Position numbers and translations under genes: made by a program. DNA of 64,000 bases from Terriglobales bacterium (lineage in GTDB: Bacteria; Acidobacteriota; Terriglobia; Terriglobales; Acidobacteriaceae): assembly GCA_035651655.1 (NCBI GenBank), contig DASRFG010000002.1, forward strand, positions 186,001-250,000, given 5' to 3'. The notes below the pieces were generated by a model, which saw only the letters and a list, made by a program, of their open reading frames with translations, did not search any database and was not told where the DNA came from. This document shows positions 45,870 to 58,210 of the stretch, piece after piece (positions within the stretch are counted from its first letter, which is position 1; every line of letters starts with the position of its first letter).

Positions 45870-46718
45870 ATGTCGTCCGCCGTCATATCCGCCGTAGCCG
45901 TCCCGCAGCCATTTACTGCTGAAATTCTAACCAAGCCGGCGCCTCATCCGAAACCAGCTCGCGTCATTCAAATCCCAACCGGAGTCACCATTGCATCGCG
46001 CCTTAAGCTAAGGCCCGACCCCGCACTGGTGCCCACTGGCATCGCGGAACTTGACGCTCAAATTGGCGGCCTGCCGCGCGGCGCGCTCACCGAAATTTTT
46101 GGGCCGACTTCTTCCGGACGAACCAGCCTGCTGCTCGCGTCTTTGGCCGGAGCTACTCGACGCCAGGAAATTTGCGCTCTGGTGGACGCTGGCGATGCCT
46201 TCGATCCCCAATCCGCCGTGGCTGCCGGCCTCGATCTCGAGCGGCTGTTGTGGGTACGCTGCGGATCTTCTAGCCAACGCTCCGGTGAAAAATGCCTGGA
46301 GCAAACCCTCAAGACTACCGACCTGCTGTTGCAGAGCGGCGGCTTCGGAATGGTGGTGGTGGATTTAGGTGACATCCCGGCGCAGGTCGCGCGCCGTATC
46401 CCACTGACCTCATGGTTTCGCTTTCGCCGCGCGGTTGAAAACACTCCGACCGTGCTGCTGGTGCTCGAGCAGGAGCCCTATGCGAAAACTTGTGCGTCGC
46501 TGGTTTTAAGAATGAATGCGATGAAGACGCAGCCATTAGCATTCAGCAGTCAGCATTCAGTCACTCAGCAATCGGAAACTGCGGCGGACCAGCCGGCGCA
46601 TGCGCAAATCCTGCGCGGAATACCCGTACAAGCGGAGGTCGTCCATGCCCGCATTCAGCGCAAACCGGTACGCTCCGCGACTATCGCATTCGAAGCTCGC
46701 ACAGTCTGGGCAGGTTGA
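45870..46718 (+). CDS. imuA: ImuA-like RecA-fold protein of the mutasome
   Basis: ImuA proteins act with ImuB and DnaE2 in damage-induced translesion synthesis. The 282-aa protein has an N-terminal region with GIAELDAQIGGLPRGALTEIFGPTSSGRTSLLLA (RecA-type loop, about 54-87), followed by ICALVDAGDAFDPQSAVAAGLDLERLLWVRC (about 92-122) and VVVDLGDIPAQVARRIPL. The P-loop has GRT instead of GKT. A tract of short CAGCATTCAG repeats near 46538-46575 is read through in frame (about residues 223-235). The ATG follows GAGG by five bases. It is the first gene of imuA-imuB-dnaE2. Confidence 0.88.
   Translation: MSSAVISAVAVPQPFTAEILTKPAPHPKPARVIQIPTGVTIASRLKLRPDPALVPTGIAELDAQIGGLPRGALTEIFGPTSSGRTSLLLASLAGATRRQEICALVDAGDAFDPQSAVAAGLDLERLLWVRCGSSSQRSGEKCLEQTLKTTDLLLQSGGFGMVVVDLGDIPAQVARRIPLTSWFRFRRAVENTPTVLLVLEQEPYAKTCASLVLRMNAMKTQPLAFSSQHSVTQQSETAADQPAHAQILRGIPVQAEVVHARIQRKPVRSATIAFEARTVWAG
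46538..46575. repeat. short CATTCAG/CAGCA repeats inside imuA
   Basis: AGCATTCAGCAGTCAGCATTCAG-type direct repetition followed by a related CACTCAGCAATCGG, in frame in the imuA 3' region. It resembles the low-complexity intergenic repeats seen next to imuB and dnaE2. Confidence 0.45.
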
Positions 46719-46720
46719 AC

Positions 46721-46752
46721 ACTGAGAACTGCGAACTGGGTACTGAGTACTG
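46721..46752. repeat. ACTGAGAACTG / ACTGAGTACTG repeat between imuA and imuB
   Basis: Copies of a short near-palindromic unit (ACTGAGAACTG, GCGAACTGGG, TACTGAGTACTG) fill the 42-base gap, replacing a normal ribosome site for imuB. Related copies lie before dnaE2 (48384-48461) and at 62659-62680. Confidence 0.65.
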
Positions 46753-46760
46753 CCGTCAAA

Positions 46761-48383
46761 ATGTCTTTCGCTTGCATCTTCGTTCCCGATTTTCCTGTGG
46801 AGGCGGTGGTGCGCGCCGAACCTCAGTTACGTGAACAGCCGGTAGCGGTGCTGCACGGCACCCCGCCATTAATAAAAGTTTTCGCCGCGAACCAGGCAGC
46901 CCGCGATCACGGGGTTGAACTTGGAATGACCAAGCTGCAGGCTGAAATTTGTCCGCAAGTAGCGCTGCGTAGCCGCTCGCCGCTGGCGGAAGCTGCCGCG
47001 CACGCCGCGCTGCTGGACTGCGCGCAGTCGTTCTCGCCGAACATTGAGGACACCGCTGACGACACCGTCCTGCTCGACCTCGACGGATTGGAACGCCTGT
47101 TCGGCCCCGTGGCCGCGATTGCGCGCGATCTAGCCCGCCGCGCCTCCGATCTGGGCGTGGAAAGTACTGTGGCGGTCGCTTCCAATCCCGACGCTGCCAT
47201 TTGCGCTGCCCGGGGCTTTCCCGGCGTGACCGTCATTCCTACCGGCAAAGAGGCAGAGCGGCTGGGCGATCTGCCGCTGGAGGTTTTGCTCTCCCTTCGC
47301 CAATTTCCCGGCGACTTCGAGCCGTCCGAAATACTAGAGACTTTCGATCGCTGGGGAGTGCGCAACTTTCGCACTCTCGCCGCTTTACCTCAAATTCCGC
47401 TCAGCGAACGCATGGGCCAGCAAGGCGTTCGCCTGCAGACACTCGCACGAGGTGCTGCCAAGCGCACGCTGTCATTGGCCGAGCCGCCACTTCACTTTGA
47501 AGAAGCCGTAGAGCTGGAGTATCCGGTGGCGCTGCTCGAGCCGCTGGCATTCATCCTCAATCGTATGCTCGAGCAACTCTGCGGACGTCTTGGCGCGCGC
47601 GCTCTCGCGACCAACCAGCTGCGTTTAAAGATGGAACTGGAGAGATTGAGCGATGAAATCAATTTACCACCGAGGCACGGAGACACAGAGAAACCAAAGT
47701 GTTCTCAAGAAAAACAATTCTCCGTGACTCCGTGTCTCCGTGGTGAAGAGATTTATGACCGCTCGCTCCACTTTCCCGTCCCGATGCTGAACCCGAAAAC
47801 TTTCATAAAGCTGCTGCAGCTCGAGCTACAGTCGCATCCGCCGGGAGCCCCGGTGGCTAAAATCTGGTTGTCGGCCGAGCCAGTAAAACCTCGCGCTGCG
47901 CAGACTGGGCTTTTTCTGCCGCTCACGCCGGAGCCGGAGAAGCTGGCGCTCACTTTGGCGCGCATCAGCGGTGTGGTAGGCGAGGGTCGCTGCGGCGCGC
48001 CAGAAATTTTGGACACGCATAGGCCAGAAGCATTTCGCATGCGAAGCTTCGCTCCAGCTGCGCCCAAAACAAATCCGCCGCAGCCAGCATCGTCTCCGTT
48101 TCCCATGGCTGCGCTGCGCGTGTTTCGACCGCCGCTGCACGCGTCGGTCATCCTGCACGCCGGCGCCCCGGTGCGGCTGTCCGTCACCATGCACCAAATC
48201 CTGCGCGGCGAAATCATGTGGGCCGCTGGCCTTTGGCGCGCTTCTGGCGATTGGTGGACAGAAAATGCCTGGGTCCGCGAGGAATGGGACATCGCGGTTC
48301 ACAACCAAAATAGCGTCACGCTTTGCCGGCTCTATCGTGACCTGAGAAGTGGGCAGTGGTTCGTCGAGGGAACCTATGACTAA
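46761..48383 (+). CDS. imuB: ImuB, Y-family-like mutasome adaptor
   Basis: The 540-aa protein has a Y-family polymerase N-terminal fold: FACIFVPDFPVEAVVRAEP, FAANQAARDHGVELGMTKLQAE and a VLLDLDGLERLFGPV segment in place of the catalytic SxDE motif, so polymerase activity is unlikely. ImuB instead binds the sliding clamp and recruits DnaE2. The C-terminal half has a little-finger-like region and GEIMWAAGLWRASGDWW (about 489). About residues 302-329 are encoded by a palindromic repeat inserted in frame. There is no clear ribosome site; translation probably depends on coupling. Confidence 0.88.
   Translation: MSFACIFVPDFPVEAVVRAEPQLREQPVAVLHGTPPLIKVFAANQAARDHGVELGMTKLQAEICPQVALRSRSPLAEAAAHAALLDCAQSFSPNIEDTADDTVLLDLDGLERLFGPVAAIARDLARRASDLGVESTVAVASNPDAAICAARGFPGVTVIPTGKEAERLGDLPLEVLLSLRQFPGDFEPSEILETFDRWGVRNFRTLAALPQIPLSERMGQQGVRLQTLARGAAKRTLSLAEPPLHFEEAVELEYPVALLEPLAFILNRMLEQLCGRLGARALATNQLRLKMELERLSDEINLPPRHGDTEKPKCSQEKQFSVTPCLRGEEIYDRSLHFPVPMLNPKTFIKLLQLELQSHPPGAPVAKIWLSAEPVKPRAAQTGLFLPLTPEPEKLALTLARISGVVGEGRCGAPEILDTHRPEAFRMRSFAPAAPKTNPPQPASSPFPMAALRVFRPPLHASVILHAGAPVRLSVTMHQILRGEIMWAAGLWRASGDWWTENAWVREEWDIAVHNQNSVTLCRLYRDLRSGQWFVEGTYD
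47664..47747. repeat. palindromic CACGGAG-type repeat read in frame inside imuB
   Basis: Arm 47664-47692 (ACCGAGGCACGGAGACACAG core) is an imperfect inverted copy of 47718-47747 (CTCCGTGTCTCCGTGGTGAA core), with a 25-base loop. The 84-bp unit adds 28 codons without stop or frame change. Part of the same family recurs in dnaE2 at 51284-51311 and 51031-51040. Confidence 0.75.
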
Positions 48384-48461
48384 ACAGTTTCCGGTTTCGA
48401 GTTTCACAACTGGAAACCTGAAACCGAAACTTCGCTACTGAGAACTGACAACTGAGAACTG
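48384..48461. repeat. repeat tract between imuB and dnaE2
   Basis: The gap is made of a GTTTC-type inverted repeat (CAGTTTCCGGTTTCGAGTTTC versus GAAACCTGAAACCGAAAC) followed by two ACTGAGAACTG-type units ending right at the dnaE2 ATG. No Shine-Dalgarno sequence is left. Confidence 0.7.
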
Positions 48462-51400
48462 ATGTACATCGAACTCCATTCCCGCTCTGCGTTCAGCTTC
48501 CTCGAAGGCGCCTCCTTGCCCGAGGAACTGGCGGGAATGTGTGCCGAACTCGGCATGTCGGCGATGGCGCTGCTCGACCGCGATGGCGTATATGGCGCGC
48601 CCCGCTTCCATCTGGCCGCAAAAAAGCTTGGCGTGCGGGCGCACATCGGGGCAGAGATAACCTATTCACCACAGTTTCAAGTTTCAGGTTTCAAGTTTCA
48701 CAAACAGCCAGCCCGACCCGAAACTCGAAACTTGAAACTTGAAACTCTCCCCCGTCTTCCGTTACTCGTCGCTTCCCGCACCGGCTATCAGAATCTCTGC
48801 CGACTGATTACGCGCATGAAAATGCGTGGCCCAAAAGATTCTCCGCCAAACGTCATCGCTGCTTCTGAAAAAGACTTGGCAGAGCATGTCGAAGGCCTCA
48901 TCTGCCTCACCGGCGACGAGCAAGGGCTCCTCGCAGACGCTCTCGCCCGCGGCGGCATCGACGAGGGTCTCCGTTGCGTCGAGCAGCTAATCGAAATTTT
49001 CGGGCACGAGAACGTCTATGTAGAACTGCAGCGGCATTTCCATCGTGAAGAAGAAGCGCGCAACCAGGCTGCTATTGAGATCGCGTCGTCGCTCGGCTTG
49101 CCGCTGCTCGCGACCAACGGCGTGTGCTATGGCGCGCGGGTTCGCGGGGTGGGCGATGGCACCCGCAGCCTGGAAGAACGGGAAATTCTCGACGTCTTCA
49201 CCTGCATTCGCAACCATCGCACTCTGGAGACCGCCGGCCGGCTGCTCGCCCGCAATTCCGAGCGTTACCTGAAGACGCCCGCAGAAATGGCAAATCTTTT
49301 TTCCGATCTGCCGCAGGCCATCGCCGCCACCCCAGAGCTTTCTTCGCGTCTCGAATTCACGCTCAACGATCTCGGCTATGAATTCCCGCGCTATCCGGTG
49401 CCCGATGGCGACACCATGATGTCATTCCTGCGCAAGCGCACCGAAGAAGGTTTTCGGGCGCGCTACGGCTACGCCGATCAGGACATGCGCCAGCGCGCCA
49501 AACGGCAGATCGAGCGCGAGCTCGCGCTGATCGATCGCCTCGAATTGGCGGGATATTTCTTGATTGTCTGGGACATCGTTAGCTTCTGCGGCAAACAAGG
49601 CATTCTGGTCCAGGGGCGCGGCTCGGCCGCGAACAGCGCCGTCTGCTACTCGCTCGGTATTACGGCTGTAGATCCTGTCGCCATGGACCTGCTCTTCGAG
49701 CGTTTTCTCTCTGAAGAGCGCGGCGAGTGGCCCGACATTGATCTCGACCTGCCCAGCGGCGACCAGCGCGAGCGTGCCATCCAGTACGTGTATCAGCGAT
49801 ATGGCCAGCTCGGCGCCGCGATGACCGCCAACGTCATTACTTATCGCGGACGCATGGCCGCGCGCGAAATGGGCAAAGCACTGGGCTTCGATCCTGAAAC
49901 GCTCAATCGCCTTTCCCCCCTGGTCGGCTCATGGGAATACAAAGATCCGAACGACACGCTTGAGCGCCAGTTCCGTGATGCCGGCTTCGACCTTCGCCAT
50001 CCCCGCATGCAGAAATACTTCGAGCTGTGTCTCGCGGTGCAAGATCTGCCTCGCCATTTGGGCCAGCACTCCGGCGGCATGGTGATCTGCCAGGGCCAGC
50101 TCGATTCAGTTGTGCCGTTGGAACCAGCCACTATGCCCGGCCGTGTCGTGGTGCAGTGGGACAAAGAGGATTGCGCCGACATGGGCATTATTAAGGTTGA
50201 CCTCCTTGGCCTGGGAATGATGGCGGTGCTGGAGGATTGTCTCGATCTGATTCCAGCTCACTACGGCGAAGAAGTTGACCTCGCGCACTTGCCGGCAAAC
50301 GATCCCGAAGTTTACGCCGCGCTCTGTGAGGCTGACACCATCGGCATGTTTCAGATCGAAAGCCGGGCGCAGATGTCCTGCCTGCCACGACTTCGTCCCG
50401 CATGCTTTTACGACATTGTTGTGCAGGTGGCGATTATCCGCCCCGGCCCGATCGTCGGCGAAATGGTGAATCCTTATATAAAGCGTCGCCAAGGCCGCGA
50501 GGAGATTACTTATCCGCATCCCTCGCTCGAGCCGGTGCTGGCGCGCACTCTTGGTGTGCCGCTTTTCCAGGAGCAGTTGCTGCGCATGGCAATGATTGCC
50601 GCGGGATTCACCGGCGGCGAAGCCGAGGAATTACGCCGCGCTTTCGGCTTCAAGCGTTCGGAAGCTCGCATGCGCGATATCGAGGTCAAGCTTCGCCGCG
50701 GCATGGAGCACAACGGCATTGCTCCCGACGCGCAGGAGCAGATCATAAATTCAATAACTTCTTTTGCGCTGTATGGATTTCCCGAATCCCACGCTGCCAG
50801 CTTCGCGCTGCTGGCCTATGCCAGCGCATATTTGAAATGCCATTACCTGGCGGCCTTTACTGCCGCGCTGCTCAACAATCAGCCGATGGGCTTCTACGCT
50901 CCTTCGACCATCGTAAAAGACGCGCAGCGCCACGGACTGAAGATCAGGCCCATTGATGTGATGAAATCAGATTGGCTGTGCACCATAGAAGAAGTTTCGA
51001 GTTTCCAGTTTCCAGTTTCGAGTGCAATCCACCACGGAGACGAAACTCGAAACTGTCTTCGCCTTGGCCTCCGTTATTCCAAAGGCCTACGCGAAGAAGC
51101 TGCTCAGGGAATTGTGCGCGAACGTCAAAAACGTCCGTTCACTTCCATAGAAAACTTGGTACAGCGGGTGCCCGAATTGCGTCGAAACGAATTGGTGCTG
51201 TTGGCGGAAATCGGAGCGCTCAATTCAATAAAAACATCAGAAGAGGTTTCAAGTTTCGAGTTTCACGTTTCCGACCCAAAGAACTCTGTGCCTCCGTGTC
51301 TCCGTGGTGCATTGCACTCGAAACTTCACCGCCGAGAAGCTCTGTGGCAAGTCGAGCGCGCGTTGCGGCCCGCCGGCCCCCTGCTTGAAGGTGTTGTCGA

Positions 51401-51845
51401 ACAAATTTCCTCTTCGCCCCTGGCGCGCATGACCGATGAAGAGCGCCTGGTGGCCGATTTTCGCGGCACTGGCATGACGGTCGGACCGCATCCCATGTCG
51501 TACCACCGCGCTGAAATGCATGCCCGGGGCGTGCGTGCGGCCATCGACCTCAAACAACTTCCTAACGGTAAATATGTACGCGTGGCCGGCGGCGTAATTG
51601 CACGGCAGCGTCCCGGCACGGCCCATGGATTTGTTTTCCTCAGCCTGGAAGACGAGACCGGAGTGGCCAACGCCATCATTACTCCAGATTTGTTCGAAAA
51701 GAACCGCATATTGCTGGTGCGCGAGCAGTTTTTGCTGATCGAGGGAAAATTGCAGAACCTGGATAATGTTATCTCCGTCAAAGCCGACCGTGTATTGCCG
51801 CTGCGTGTGACCAATGCTCCTACGGAATCACACGATTTTCACTGA
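48462..51845 (+). CDS. dnaE2: error-prone DNA polymerase III alpha subunit DnaE2
   Basis: DnaE2 (ImuC) is the C-family polymerase of the mutasome. The 1127-aa protein has an N-terminal PHP domain (MYIELHSRSAFSFLEGAS, LLDRDGVYGAPRFH), the catalytic core with RGSAANSAVCYSLGIT and WPDIDLDLPSGDQRERAIQY (about 424-443), LPRHLGQHSGGMVIC, LLGLGMMAVLEDCL and FPESHAASFALLAYASAYLK. A C-terminal OB fold follows (GVIARQRPGTAHGFVFLSLEDE). It is longer than the usual 1030-1080 because three palindromic repeats are read in frame at about residues 71-95, 844-864 and 929-956. Whether the protein tolerates them is unknown; they fall between conserved blocks. Confidence 0.95.
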   Translation: MYIELHSRSAFSFLEGASLPEELAGMCAELGMSAMALLDRDGVYGAPRFHLAAKKLGVRAHIGAEITYSPQFQVSGFKFHKQPARPETRNLKLETLPRLPLLVASRTGYQNLCRLITRMKMRGPKDSPPNVIAASEKDLAEHVEGLICLTGDEQGLLADALARGGIDEGLRCVEQLIEIFGHENVYVELQRHFHREEEARNQAAIEIASSLGLPLLATNGVCYGARVRGVGDGTRSLEEREILDVFTCIRNHRTLETAGRLLARNSERYLKTPAEMANLFSDLPQAIAATPELSSRLEFTLNDLGYEFPRYPVPDGDTMMSFLRKRTEEGFRARYGYADQDMRQRAKRQIERELALIDRLELAGYFLIVWDIVSFCGKQGILVQGRGSAANSAVCYSLGITAVDPVAMDLLFERFLSEERGEWPDIDLDLPSGDQRERAIQYVYQRYGQLGAAMTANVITYRGRMAAREMGKALGFDPETLNRLSPLVGSWEYKDPNDTLERQFRDAGFDLRHPRMQKYFELCLAVQDLPRHLGQHSGGMVICQGQLDSVVPLEPATMPGRVVVQWDKEDCADMGIIKVDLLGLGMMAVLEDCLDLIPAHYGEEVDLAHLPANDPEVYAALCEADTIGMFQIESRAQMSCLPRLRPACFYDIVVQVAIIRPGPIVGEMVNPYIKRRQGREEITYPHPSLEPVLARTLGVPLFQEQLLRMAMIAAGFTGGEAEELRRAFGFKRSEARMRDIEVKLRRGMEHNGIAPDAQEQIINSITSFALYGFPESHAASFALLAYASAYLKCHYLAAFTAALLNNQPMGFYAPSTIVKDAQRHGLKIRPIDVMKSDWLCTIEEVSSFQFPVSSAIHHGDETRNCLRLGLRYSKGLREEAAQGIVRERQKRPFTSIENLVQRVPELRRNELVLLAEIGALNSIKTSEEVSSFEFHVSDPKNSVPPCLRGALHSKLHRREALWQVERALRPAGPLLEGVVEQISSSPLARMTDEERLVADFRGTGMTVGPHPMSYHRAEMHARGVRAAIDLKQLPNGKYVRVAGGVIARQRPGTAHGFVFLSLEDETGVANAIITPDLFEKNRILLVREQFLLIEGKLQNLDNVISVKADRVLPLRVTNAPTESHDFH
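48673..48746. repeat. GTTTCAAGTTTC palindromic repeat in frame in dnaE2 (PHP domain)
   Basis: Arm 48673-48699 (AGTTTCAAGTTTCAGGTTTC core) and inverted arm 48720-48746 (GAAACTTGAAACTTGAAAC core) with a 20-base loop. Adds about 25 residues (QVSGFKFHKQPARPETRN) between ITYSPQF and LPRLPLLV of the PHP domain. Confidence 0.8.
50993..51054. repeat. GTTTCGAGTTTCCAG palindromic repeat in frame in dnaE2
   Basis: Arm 50993-51023 (AGTTTCGAGTTTCCAGTTTC core) pairs with GAAACTCGAAACT (51042-51054); the loop carries CCACGGAGACG, a piece of the second repeat family. Encodes about residues 844-864. Confidence 0.75.
51246..51331. repeat. composite GTTTC / CTCCGTG repeat in frame in dnaE2
   Basis: Arm 51246-51273 (GGTTTCAAGTTTCGAGTTTC core) and ACTCGAAACTTCACC (51317-51331) flank a CTCTGTGCCTCCGTGTCTCC unit of the other family (51284-51311). 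Encodes about residues 929-956. Confidence 0.75.
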
Positions 51846-57743: not shown

Positions 57744-57968
57744 TCATTCTTGCGCTTGTGGCGTTCTTAATCTTAGGTTTGTATTGTGAACCTGGCCTTC
57801 AATCGCGAACAAAGGCAATACTCCCGCTAATGGCTCAAGGCAATGATAGATTTTAATTGTGAACCGATTCTCTTAAACCGCAATTAAGGGCACCCCACCT
57901 CGACGTAATCTCGTCCTCGTTACCAGAGTGACGCTTCTCGAATCCTCATTGTCAGGTATGCTGGTGAT

Positions 57969-58210
57969 GCATCGAGAGCAGCGTGAACTCGCTTCACGCT
58001 CCGCAACCTGCGGATAACGCAAGGTGCGTTGAACGCTTTTAACCGCGTTCGATGTGGTGAAGAAAACTTCACAACAGAATCACTCCATCTCGATGCGCTG
58101 AAAGGAAGCGCATCAATGTAGCCCATCAACCCTGGTGTCCATACCTGCATCGAGCAGCCTCGGGATCTGCTCTTTGGCTCTTCGCAATTTTCAGAGCTCT
58201 TTCTGAGCTC
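57969..58210 (+). ncRNA. candidate structured RNA: six hairpins and a long-range pairing
   Basis: In 242 intergenic bases I find these stems. GCGTGAA/TTCACGC (57981-57999), ACCTGCG/CGC-A-AGGT with one bulge (58006-58025) and GAACGC/GCGTTC (58031-58050). GTGAAG/CTTCAC with an AAAA loop (58057-58072), GATGCGCT/AGCGCATC (58092-58114) and GAGCTC/GAGCTC (58194-58210). In addition GCATCGAG (57969-57976) is exactly complementary to CTCGATGC (58089-58096), which would close a multibranch loop around the first four and compete with the fifth hairpin. A second GCATCGAG at 58147-58154 is an alternative partner. It lies ahead of the plus-strand gene at 58269, so it may be its leader or an independent RNA. 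The strand is inferred. Confidence 0.5.

Follow-up and report, generated by a model that had tools for sequence, protein, structure and literature searches.

The imuA-imuB-dnaE2 mutasome operon of an acidobacterial genome carries repeat units in its intergenic gaps and, in frame, inside its genes. The operon lies in a 64-kb stretch of contig DASRFG010000002.1 (positions 186,001 to 250,000; hereafter the window, meaning the whole stretch analysed) from a Terriglobales genome of 4.07 Mb in 39 contigs, and its nearest named relatives are Acidobacteriota. We identified the three genes from the list of open reading frames (ORFs) and Pfam matches. ImuB, like other members of its family, is presumably catalytically inactive. 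DnaE1, the replicative paralogue, is encoded away from dnaE2. The genes and repeat features, in window coordinates, are as follows.

45870-46718, + strand: imuA-like RecA-fold gene (ORF; Pfam RecA, E 9.2e-19)
46534-46570, + strand: CATTCAG heptamer array within imuA, at a segment whose length varies among relatives (repeat reading; ImuA alignment)
46721-46752, + strand: ACTGAGA heptamer array that fills the imuA-imuB gap (repeat reading)
46761-48383, + strand: imuB, Y-family homologue (ORF; Pfam IMS, E 1.4e-19)
47664-47747, + strand: CACGGAG...CTCCGTG palindrome with CACGGAG octamer arms, in frame in ImuB (repeat reading; ImuB alignment)
48386-48431, + strand: GTTTC...GAAAC palindrome in the imuB-dnaE2 gap (repeat reading)
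48437-48462, + strand: ACTGAGA heptamer array that extends to the dnaE2 start codon (repeat reading)
48462-51845, + strand: dnaE2, error-prone C-family polymerase (ORF; Pfam PHP, DNA_pol3_alpha, finger, HHH_6, and OB-fold)
48673-48746, + strand: site S1, GTTTCNN palindrome that falls between two protein strands of the PHP domain (inverted repeat, alignment, AlphaFold)
50993-51054, + strand: site S2, GTTTCNN palindrome whose loop contains a CACGGAGAC piece; it falls between two protein strands (within the HHH_6 match, residues 825-926)
51246-51331, + strand: site S3, GTTTCNN array plus CTCCGTG array in an inter-helix loop at the end of the HHH_6 match (repeat reading, Pfam, alignment, AlphaFold)

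The units are built of short tandem arrays. A sequence-only reading of this DNA had placed four in-frame units inside imuB and dnaE2; sequence, ORFs, and repeats all bear this out, and each of the two genes is one uninterrupted open frame across its units. The arms are arrays of approximately 3-5 imperfect copies of 7 nt (GTTTCNN, ACTGNNN, CATTCAG) or 8 nt (CACGGAGN), and these make at least four repeat types, not the two families first proposed; ACTGNNN occurs in each of the two gaps, and CATTCAG lies within imuA. The units had also been described as palindromic. This holds for 48673-48746, an inverted repeat with 27-nt arms that are 93% complementary, but 51246-51331 is only partly palindromic. 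The units at 50993-51054 and 51246-51331 contain AGTTTCC and GTTTCAA heptamer arrays. S2 and S3 also hold a common 28-nt junction in inverted orientation (51014-51041 and 51298-51325, 96% identity), as if one insert had been copied from the other. Under strict settings, scanning the 64 kb for period 7 found three stretches, every one in dnaE2, and the same scan at periods 4-6 and 8-12 found none. ACTGAGA and GTTTC arrays occupy the gaps ahead of imuB and dnaE2, which the earlier reading had also described as filled by repeats, and inspection of these gaps by eye revealed no clear Shine-Dalgarno sequence before either gene.

The DnaE2 units lie at three loops that are repeatedly expanded among homologues. 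We collected 130 dnaE2 loci of Acidobacteriota by similarity to the window; removal of 10 duplicates left 120 distinct proteins, of which 119 were full length (we excluded L060, which is truncated by a contig end). Between fixed anchors, the loop is nine residues or shorter in 41 (S1), 55 (S2), and 57 (S3) of the 119 proteins, S1 has exactly 24 residues in 24 of them, and the longest loops have 69, 135, and 92 residues. In many genomes, the same three loops are expanded, with differing repeat families. Over short-form relatives, the window's DnaE2 gains approximately 25, 15, and 28 residues at S1, S2, and S3, and its ImuB gains 30; one unit thus falls short of the 20-29 added residues of the earlier reading. 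ImuB has 33 residues between its anchors in the window versus 3 in 17 of 56 aligned homologues, and the CATTCAG segment of ImuA has 30 residues here and 9-60 among 34 aligned ImuA proteins, the window's included. ImuB and ImuA also vary in length at sites of their own, several with heptamer arrays and others without. The alignments with relatives, the short forms, and the differences between congeners described below support the suggestion that the segments are lineage-specific insertions.

The inserts are periodic or palindromic far more often than other parts of the same genes. There were 179 segments of at least 15 residues at the three sites; 21 were set aside as the fixed 24-residue S1 loop of more distant proteins, leaving 158 variable inserts, and 895 segments of the same genes served as controls. 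Counting a period when the lag score was at least 0.8 (lags 4 to 16), we found lag 7 in 42% of inserts, lag 8 in 7%, lag 14 in 24%, lag 16 in 4%, and other lags in 0%, versus 0% of controls at every lag tested. An inverted-repeat score of at least 12 was reached by 35% of inserts and 0.1% of controls. In total, 54% of variable inserts have period 7 or 8 or an inverted repeat and 46% have neither, some of the latter with other repeat types; several inserts possess one arm only. Inserts of L004, L011, L017, and L224 hold a TCATTCCGA...GGAATCT palindrome type beside or in place of heptamers, so other repeat families occupy the same loops. In L086 S1, L223 S3, and L236 S3, palindromes are nested within palindromes of another heptamer family. 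We rejected an assembly artefact, since the pattern was found again in many separately named metagenome-assembled genomes (the carriers of the repeat types that we checked include no isolate genome).

The inserts are kept in frame. None of the 158 contains an in-frame stop codon, whereas the +1 frame is interrupted in 80 and the +2 frame in 123, and the 119 full-length genes have no stop or frame break, a count that best-match picking of intact genes favors. Heptamer slippage might nevertheless turn the mutator off and on by shifting the frame, as a 7-nt step breaks the triplet frame and other loci are known to phase-vary by heptamers (HMW1A, PMC8262952). We consider such a switch very improbable: each array has only approximately 3-5 imperfect copies, and no on/off pair of frame alleles appeared among the 119 genes, which are best-match picks represented by one consensus assembly each and could hide off alleles.

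Structure prediction suggests that the three sites are disordered loops. In the AlphaFold model of DnaE2 (mean predicted local distance difference test score, pLDDT, 74.5; predicted template modelling score 0.64), pLDDT falls below 50 at residues 74-93 (S1), 847-862 (S2), and 926-953 (S3), and in ten other stretches. If tolerance is the correct explanation, these sites mark three insertion-tolerant loops of DnaE2.

The loops remain occupied while their contents change. In two members of one genus with 90.8% core nucleotide identity (L099 and L222), the S1 inserts differ, those at S2 are partly common, and those at S3 are 91% identical. In another genus (L085, L086, and L223), S1 and S3 inserts differ or are absent, and L086 and L223 have related GTCGAYG arrays at S2. 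Close relatives can also differ by presence versus near absence (L030 and L032 at S2, L008 and L010 at S3), and other close pairs have decaying inserts in common (e.g., L031 and L102). A composite element at S1 of genome G108 has a counterpart at S3 of its congener G054 (84% identity over 145 nt) and copies of 73-75% identity at three further places in G108, a genome with many matches related to this element. On a tree of the 119 DnaE2 proteins with insert columns removed, 40 carry a 7- or 8-periodic insert and 79 do not; at least 17 changes are needed, 13 of them forced by starred branches, fewer than in any of 500 shuffles, which indicates a trait that is clustered but subject to frequent change. 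Carriers, among them Blastocatellia (L029, L039) and Pyrinomonadaceae (L021), span at least two groups of one phylum. No periodic insert occurs in a clade of 21 DnaE2 proteins with Granulicella, Edaphobacter, and Acidicapsa. As regards horizontal gain of the operon, genome G004 holds the best non-self match of both DnaE2 and DnaE1, a comparison of closest matches and not of trees.

Arrays are frequent in dnaE2 and rare in the other genes that we compared. We counted arrays with a detector score of at least 34 at periods 7, 8, 14, and 16. The 30 DnaE2 loci were best matches among 150 genomes, not a random sample, and include near copies (L101, L102); the 30 DnaE1 loci were best DnaE1 matches in those 150 genomes and come from genomes that coincide only in part with those of the DnaE2 loci. 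For UvrA, PolA, and LeuS we used 20 genomes selected for an insert-bearing dnaE2, leaving out LeuS fragments (L320-L330) and PolA N-terminal pieces (L298-L300). The DnaE2 genes had 77 arrays in 100.0 kb, spread over 21 of the 30 loci. The DnaE1 genes had none in 104.4 kb when bounded by matches; when bounded by ORFs they had one in 105.4 kb, located 21 nt from an ORF start. There were no arrays in UvrA (56.6 kb) or UvrA2 (29.8 kb), one weak array (score 34) in PolA (56.2 kb), and one in LeuS (48.8 kb), 30 nt from an ORF start. A general bias toward repair genes in these genomes is not supported by the array-free UvrA and UvrA2 genes and the single weak array in PolA. In UvrA2 of about ten genomes, matches split near model position 150-163 into parts that share a frame and are approximately 90-170 nt apart, a pattern that would fit an insert; the genes of L269 and L270, which are among these, have no 7- or 8-nt arrays.

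The excess extends over the operon and drops at its ends. Across 76 loci, the number of arrays per kb was 0.05 upstream, 0.49 in imuA, 2.24 in the first gap, 0.26 in imuB, 4.25 in the second gap, 0.33 in dnaE2, and 0.08 downstream, and 38 of the 76 had at least one array in the operon. Same-direction gaps elsewhere had 0.34 per kb without G108 and 1.03 with it. In eight genomes, using a score of at least 36 and stretches selected non-randomly, from contig number and known positions, we counted 38 arrays in 26.9 kb of dnaE2, 122 in 149.1 kb of intergenic DNA, and 73 in 1301.5 kb of other ORFs; these densities are approximate, with genes in the stretches called by a crude longest-ORF rule and imuA and imuB bounds along the operon taken from BLAST matches. 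G108 contributes 100 of the 122 intergenic arrays, and its operon has 30 arrays in 7.1 kb versus at most 10 in any other sampled 6-kb stretch. In the G108 sample, 24 arrays lie deep within other ORFs, including queuosine synthesis (L183, 14485-15648), formyltransferase (L184, 6249-7289), polyA-polymerase-like, and HhH-GPD base-excision repair (L132, 4526-5428) genes. Based on the array counts by gene, the eight-genome densities, and the operon profile, we agree with the earlier suggestion that the whole mutasome collects repeats; equal frequency in all genes would have spoken against it, and the sampled genes and stretches show an excess in the mutasome instead.

The motif types of the window also occur elsewhere in its genome. 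GTTTCNNGTTTCNNGTTTC has 13 exact matches in the 4.07 Mb, 9 of them within the operon. All three exact matches of CTCCGTGNCTCCGTG are in the operon, as are 6 of its 13 matches with at most one mismatch. The GTTTC triple has four exact matches outside the operon; the GTTTC type is low-copy here. We read 14 of the 16 places outside the operon. Ten lie in no called ORF, and 9 of those are no more than 32 nt away from an ORF end. The remaining 4 are inside called ORFs (L332, L335, L336, and L338), although in L332 and L338 they touch only the extreme end or start. These whole-genome counts do not support a single high-copy mobile family of the Rickettsia kind. Rfam at gathering scores found nothing in the whole window beyond one tRNA and one SAM riboswitch (SAM-I/IV, 57964-58088).

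These copies bear on whether the mutasome might build its own repeats, by induced DnaE2 gap filling or template switching near its transcribed operon. The operon-limited distribution, the excess over intergenic DNA, the near absence of arrays from UvrA, PolA, and DnaE1 (0, 1, and 1), and the diversity of sequences with only two periods would fit such an origin. However, the same motif types elsewhere in the genome and the composite element with relatives at many loci point to copying of existing elements, and the array-free Granulicella-Edaphobacter-Acidicapsa clade is also unfavorable. We regard self-made repeats as unlikely.

What the data show is that insertion recurs at fixed loops under selection for frame and that, in the sampled genomes, arrays are in excess across the operon. 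Mobility, rare expression, and the cause of the excess are inferred. The account that we favor, to which we give about an even chance, is that the units are copies of dispersed hairpin elements, similar to repetitive extragenic palindromic (REP) sequences, that repeatedly enter, are exchanged within, and are kept in the operon, in DnaE2 at disordered loops. Elements with 7- or 8-nt tandem arms would land in the operon and swap within it. Copies that keep the frame at the three loop tips of DnaE2 should be translated as unstructured extra loops; selection for frame is observed, and production of the peptides would follow from it. Comparison of the inserts suggests that a loop, once it holds one element, may receive others by insertion or recombination; nested palindromes and inserts of constant site and changing sequence would then be expected. 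Mutasomes are non-essential and seldom used in other bacteria, and the operon could retain elements for that reason. Preferential insertion or retention would act on top of plain tolerance, as the density above that of intergenic DNA suggests.

Several observations weigh against this account. dnaE2 is denser in arrays than intergenic DNA in all eight genomes (G074 provides only 2.2 kb of the latter), and the intergenic DNA of the window's own genome is nearly array-free (3 arrays in 39.4 kb); tolerance combined with random insertion is therefore insufficient on its own. The G026 operon, with 6 arrays, merely ties the best other stretch (6), which counts against uniqueness. We found no link to a transposase: Y1_Tnp genes, of the RAYT kind associated with GTAG/CGTC REPs, are present in 10 of 10 genomes tested, with 1 to 12 copies each that do not obviously track repeat load. 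Six LexA-box-like patterns matched 0, 0, 0, 3, 1, and 3 of 73 regions upstream of imuA, revealing no common box, and no gapped palindrome was common to at least 12 of these regions.

The excess is hard to account for by passive tolerance alone. The sequence-only reading had offered a tolerant sink or a structural role. A sink in its pure form, in which dispensable loops of a dispensable operon gather elements at a neutral rate, would fit G108, where dnaE2 (2.36 per kb) is close to intergenic DNA (1.85 per kb). It is weakened because dnaE2 is the denser in each of the eight genomes; the other seven have 30 arrays in 23.5 kb of dnaE2 versus 22 in 95 kb of intergenic DNA. We consider it quite improbable.

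A role in DNA or RNA structure is possible. RNA folding was unusually strong for S1 and S2 of the window (z of -5.8 and -5.7) and for 48 of 157 inserts (z below -4; one long insert was left unfolded). Selection might keep the repeats if mutasome expression or assembly is tuned by their hairpins, whether in DNA or in mRNA, or by the extra loops that they encode. The sharp change in density at both operon ends, the high density in the internal gaps, and sites that remain filled as sequences change are consistent with this. In addition, a 2026 paper (PMC12926913) models two DnaE2 regions as contacting ImuB: the PHP domain, which holds S1, and the HhH region, within or at the end of which S2 and S3 lie. 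We nonetheless find selection doubtful, given the several single-armed inserts, the median z of -1.7, the unremarkable folding of S3 (z approximately 0), and the 79 DnaE2 genes that lack a 7- or 8-periodic insert and are presumably functional. A broader statement, that hairpin repeats are targeted to the mutator operon or selected there and that the density, sharp borders, and refilled loops reflect self-mutagenesis in cis or a conserved structural brake of free sequence, is one that we hold tentatively, as a minority possibility. If the excess is targeted or selected, the mutator would bear its own sequence-independent brake or the scars of its own action.

The operon invites comparison with several known repeat systems. 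Our literature search found no title or abstract on repeats in an acidobacterial mutasome within its coverage, outside of which lie most subscription journals and bioRxiv. Rickettsia palindromic elements (RPE), as described in passages of PMC3733652, are likewise in-frame palindromic inserts in likely functional proteins. The RPE parallel drawn earlier holds for this effect but not for the family: RPE occur in many R. conorii ORFs, whereas here one operon dominates the sampled genomes, the arms are heptamers or octamers, the sequence changes by genome, and the GTTTC type is low-copy. Heptamer repeats of Beggiatoaceae, cyanobacteria, and Xanthomonas (passages of PMC4679880 and PMC4692102) have period 7, lie mostly in gaps and near start or stop codons, and partly cover the expected ribosome site, as here. 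They differ in being direct repeats in gaps or G-rich units, and those passages mention no mutasome. Tandem 7-nt units, which define repeats like the heptamer short tandemly repeated repetitive (STRR) sequences, are found in the inserts at the frequencies given above for lags 7 and 8. Since mainly the 7- or 8-nt period is common to the inserts, single-motif searches overlook them.

The closest parallel is with the GTAG/CGTC REPs, reported in 2013 inside DNA repair genes including dnaE2, uvrA, and recB (PMC3733652). According to passages of that paper, they too are in-frame palindromes in repair and polymerase genes, often of 20-30 residues, and otherwise mostly intergenic. One of their ends has GTAG or CGTC; by eye, no unit of the window begins or ends with these or their complements, and the units here have 7/8-nt array arms whose sequence varies between genomes and sites. 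The load here is on imuA-imuB-dnaE2, and not on UvrA or PolA. Section 15 of the 2013 paper notes the bias of palindromes toward repair genes and leaves it unexplained; the acidobacterial operon is a natural test case for the question of why palindromes enter repair and mutator genes. As intragenic REPs in DnaE2 were already known elsewhere, this operon is a striking variant and not a new kind of system.

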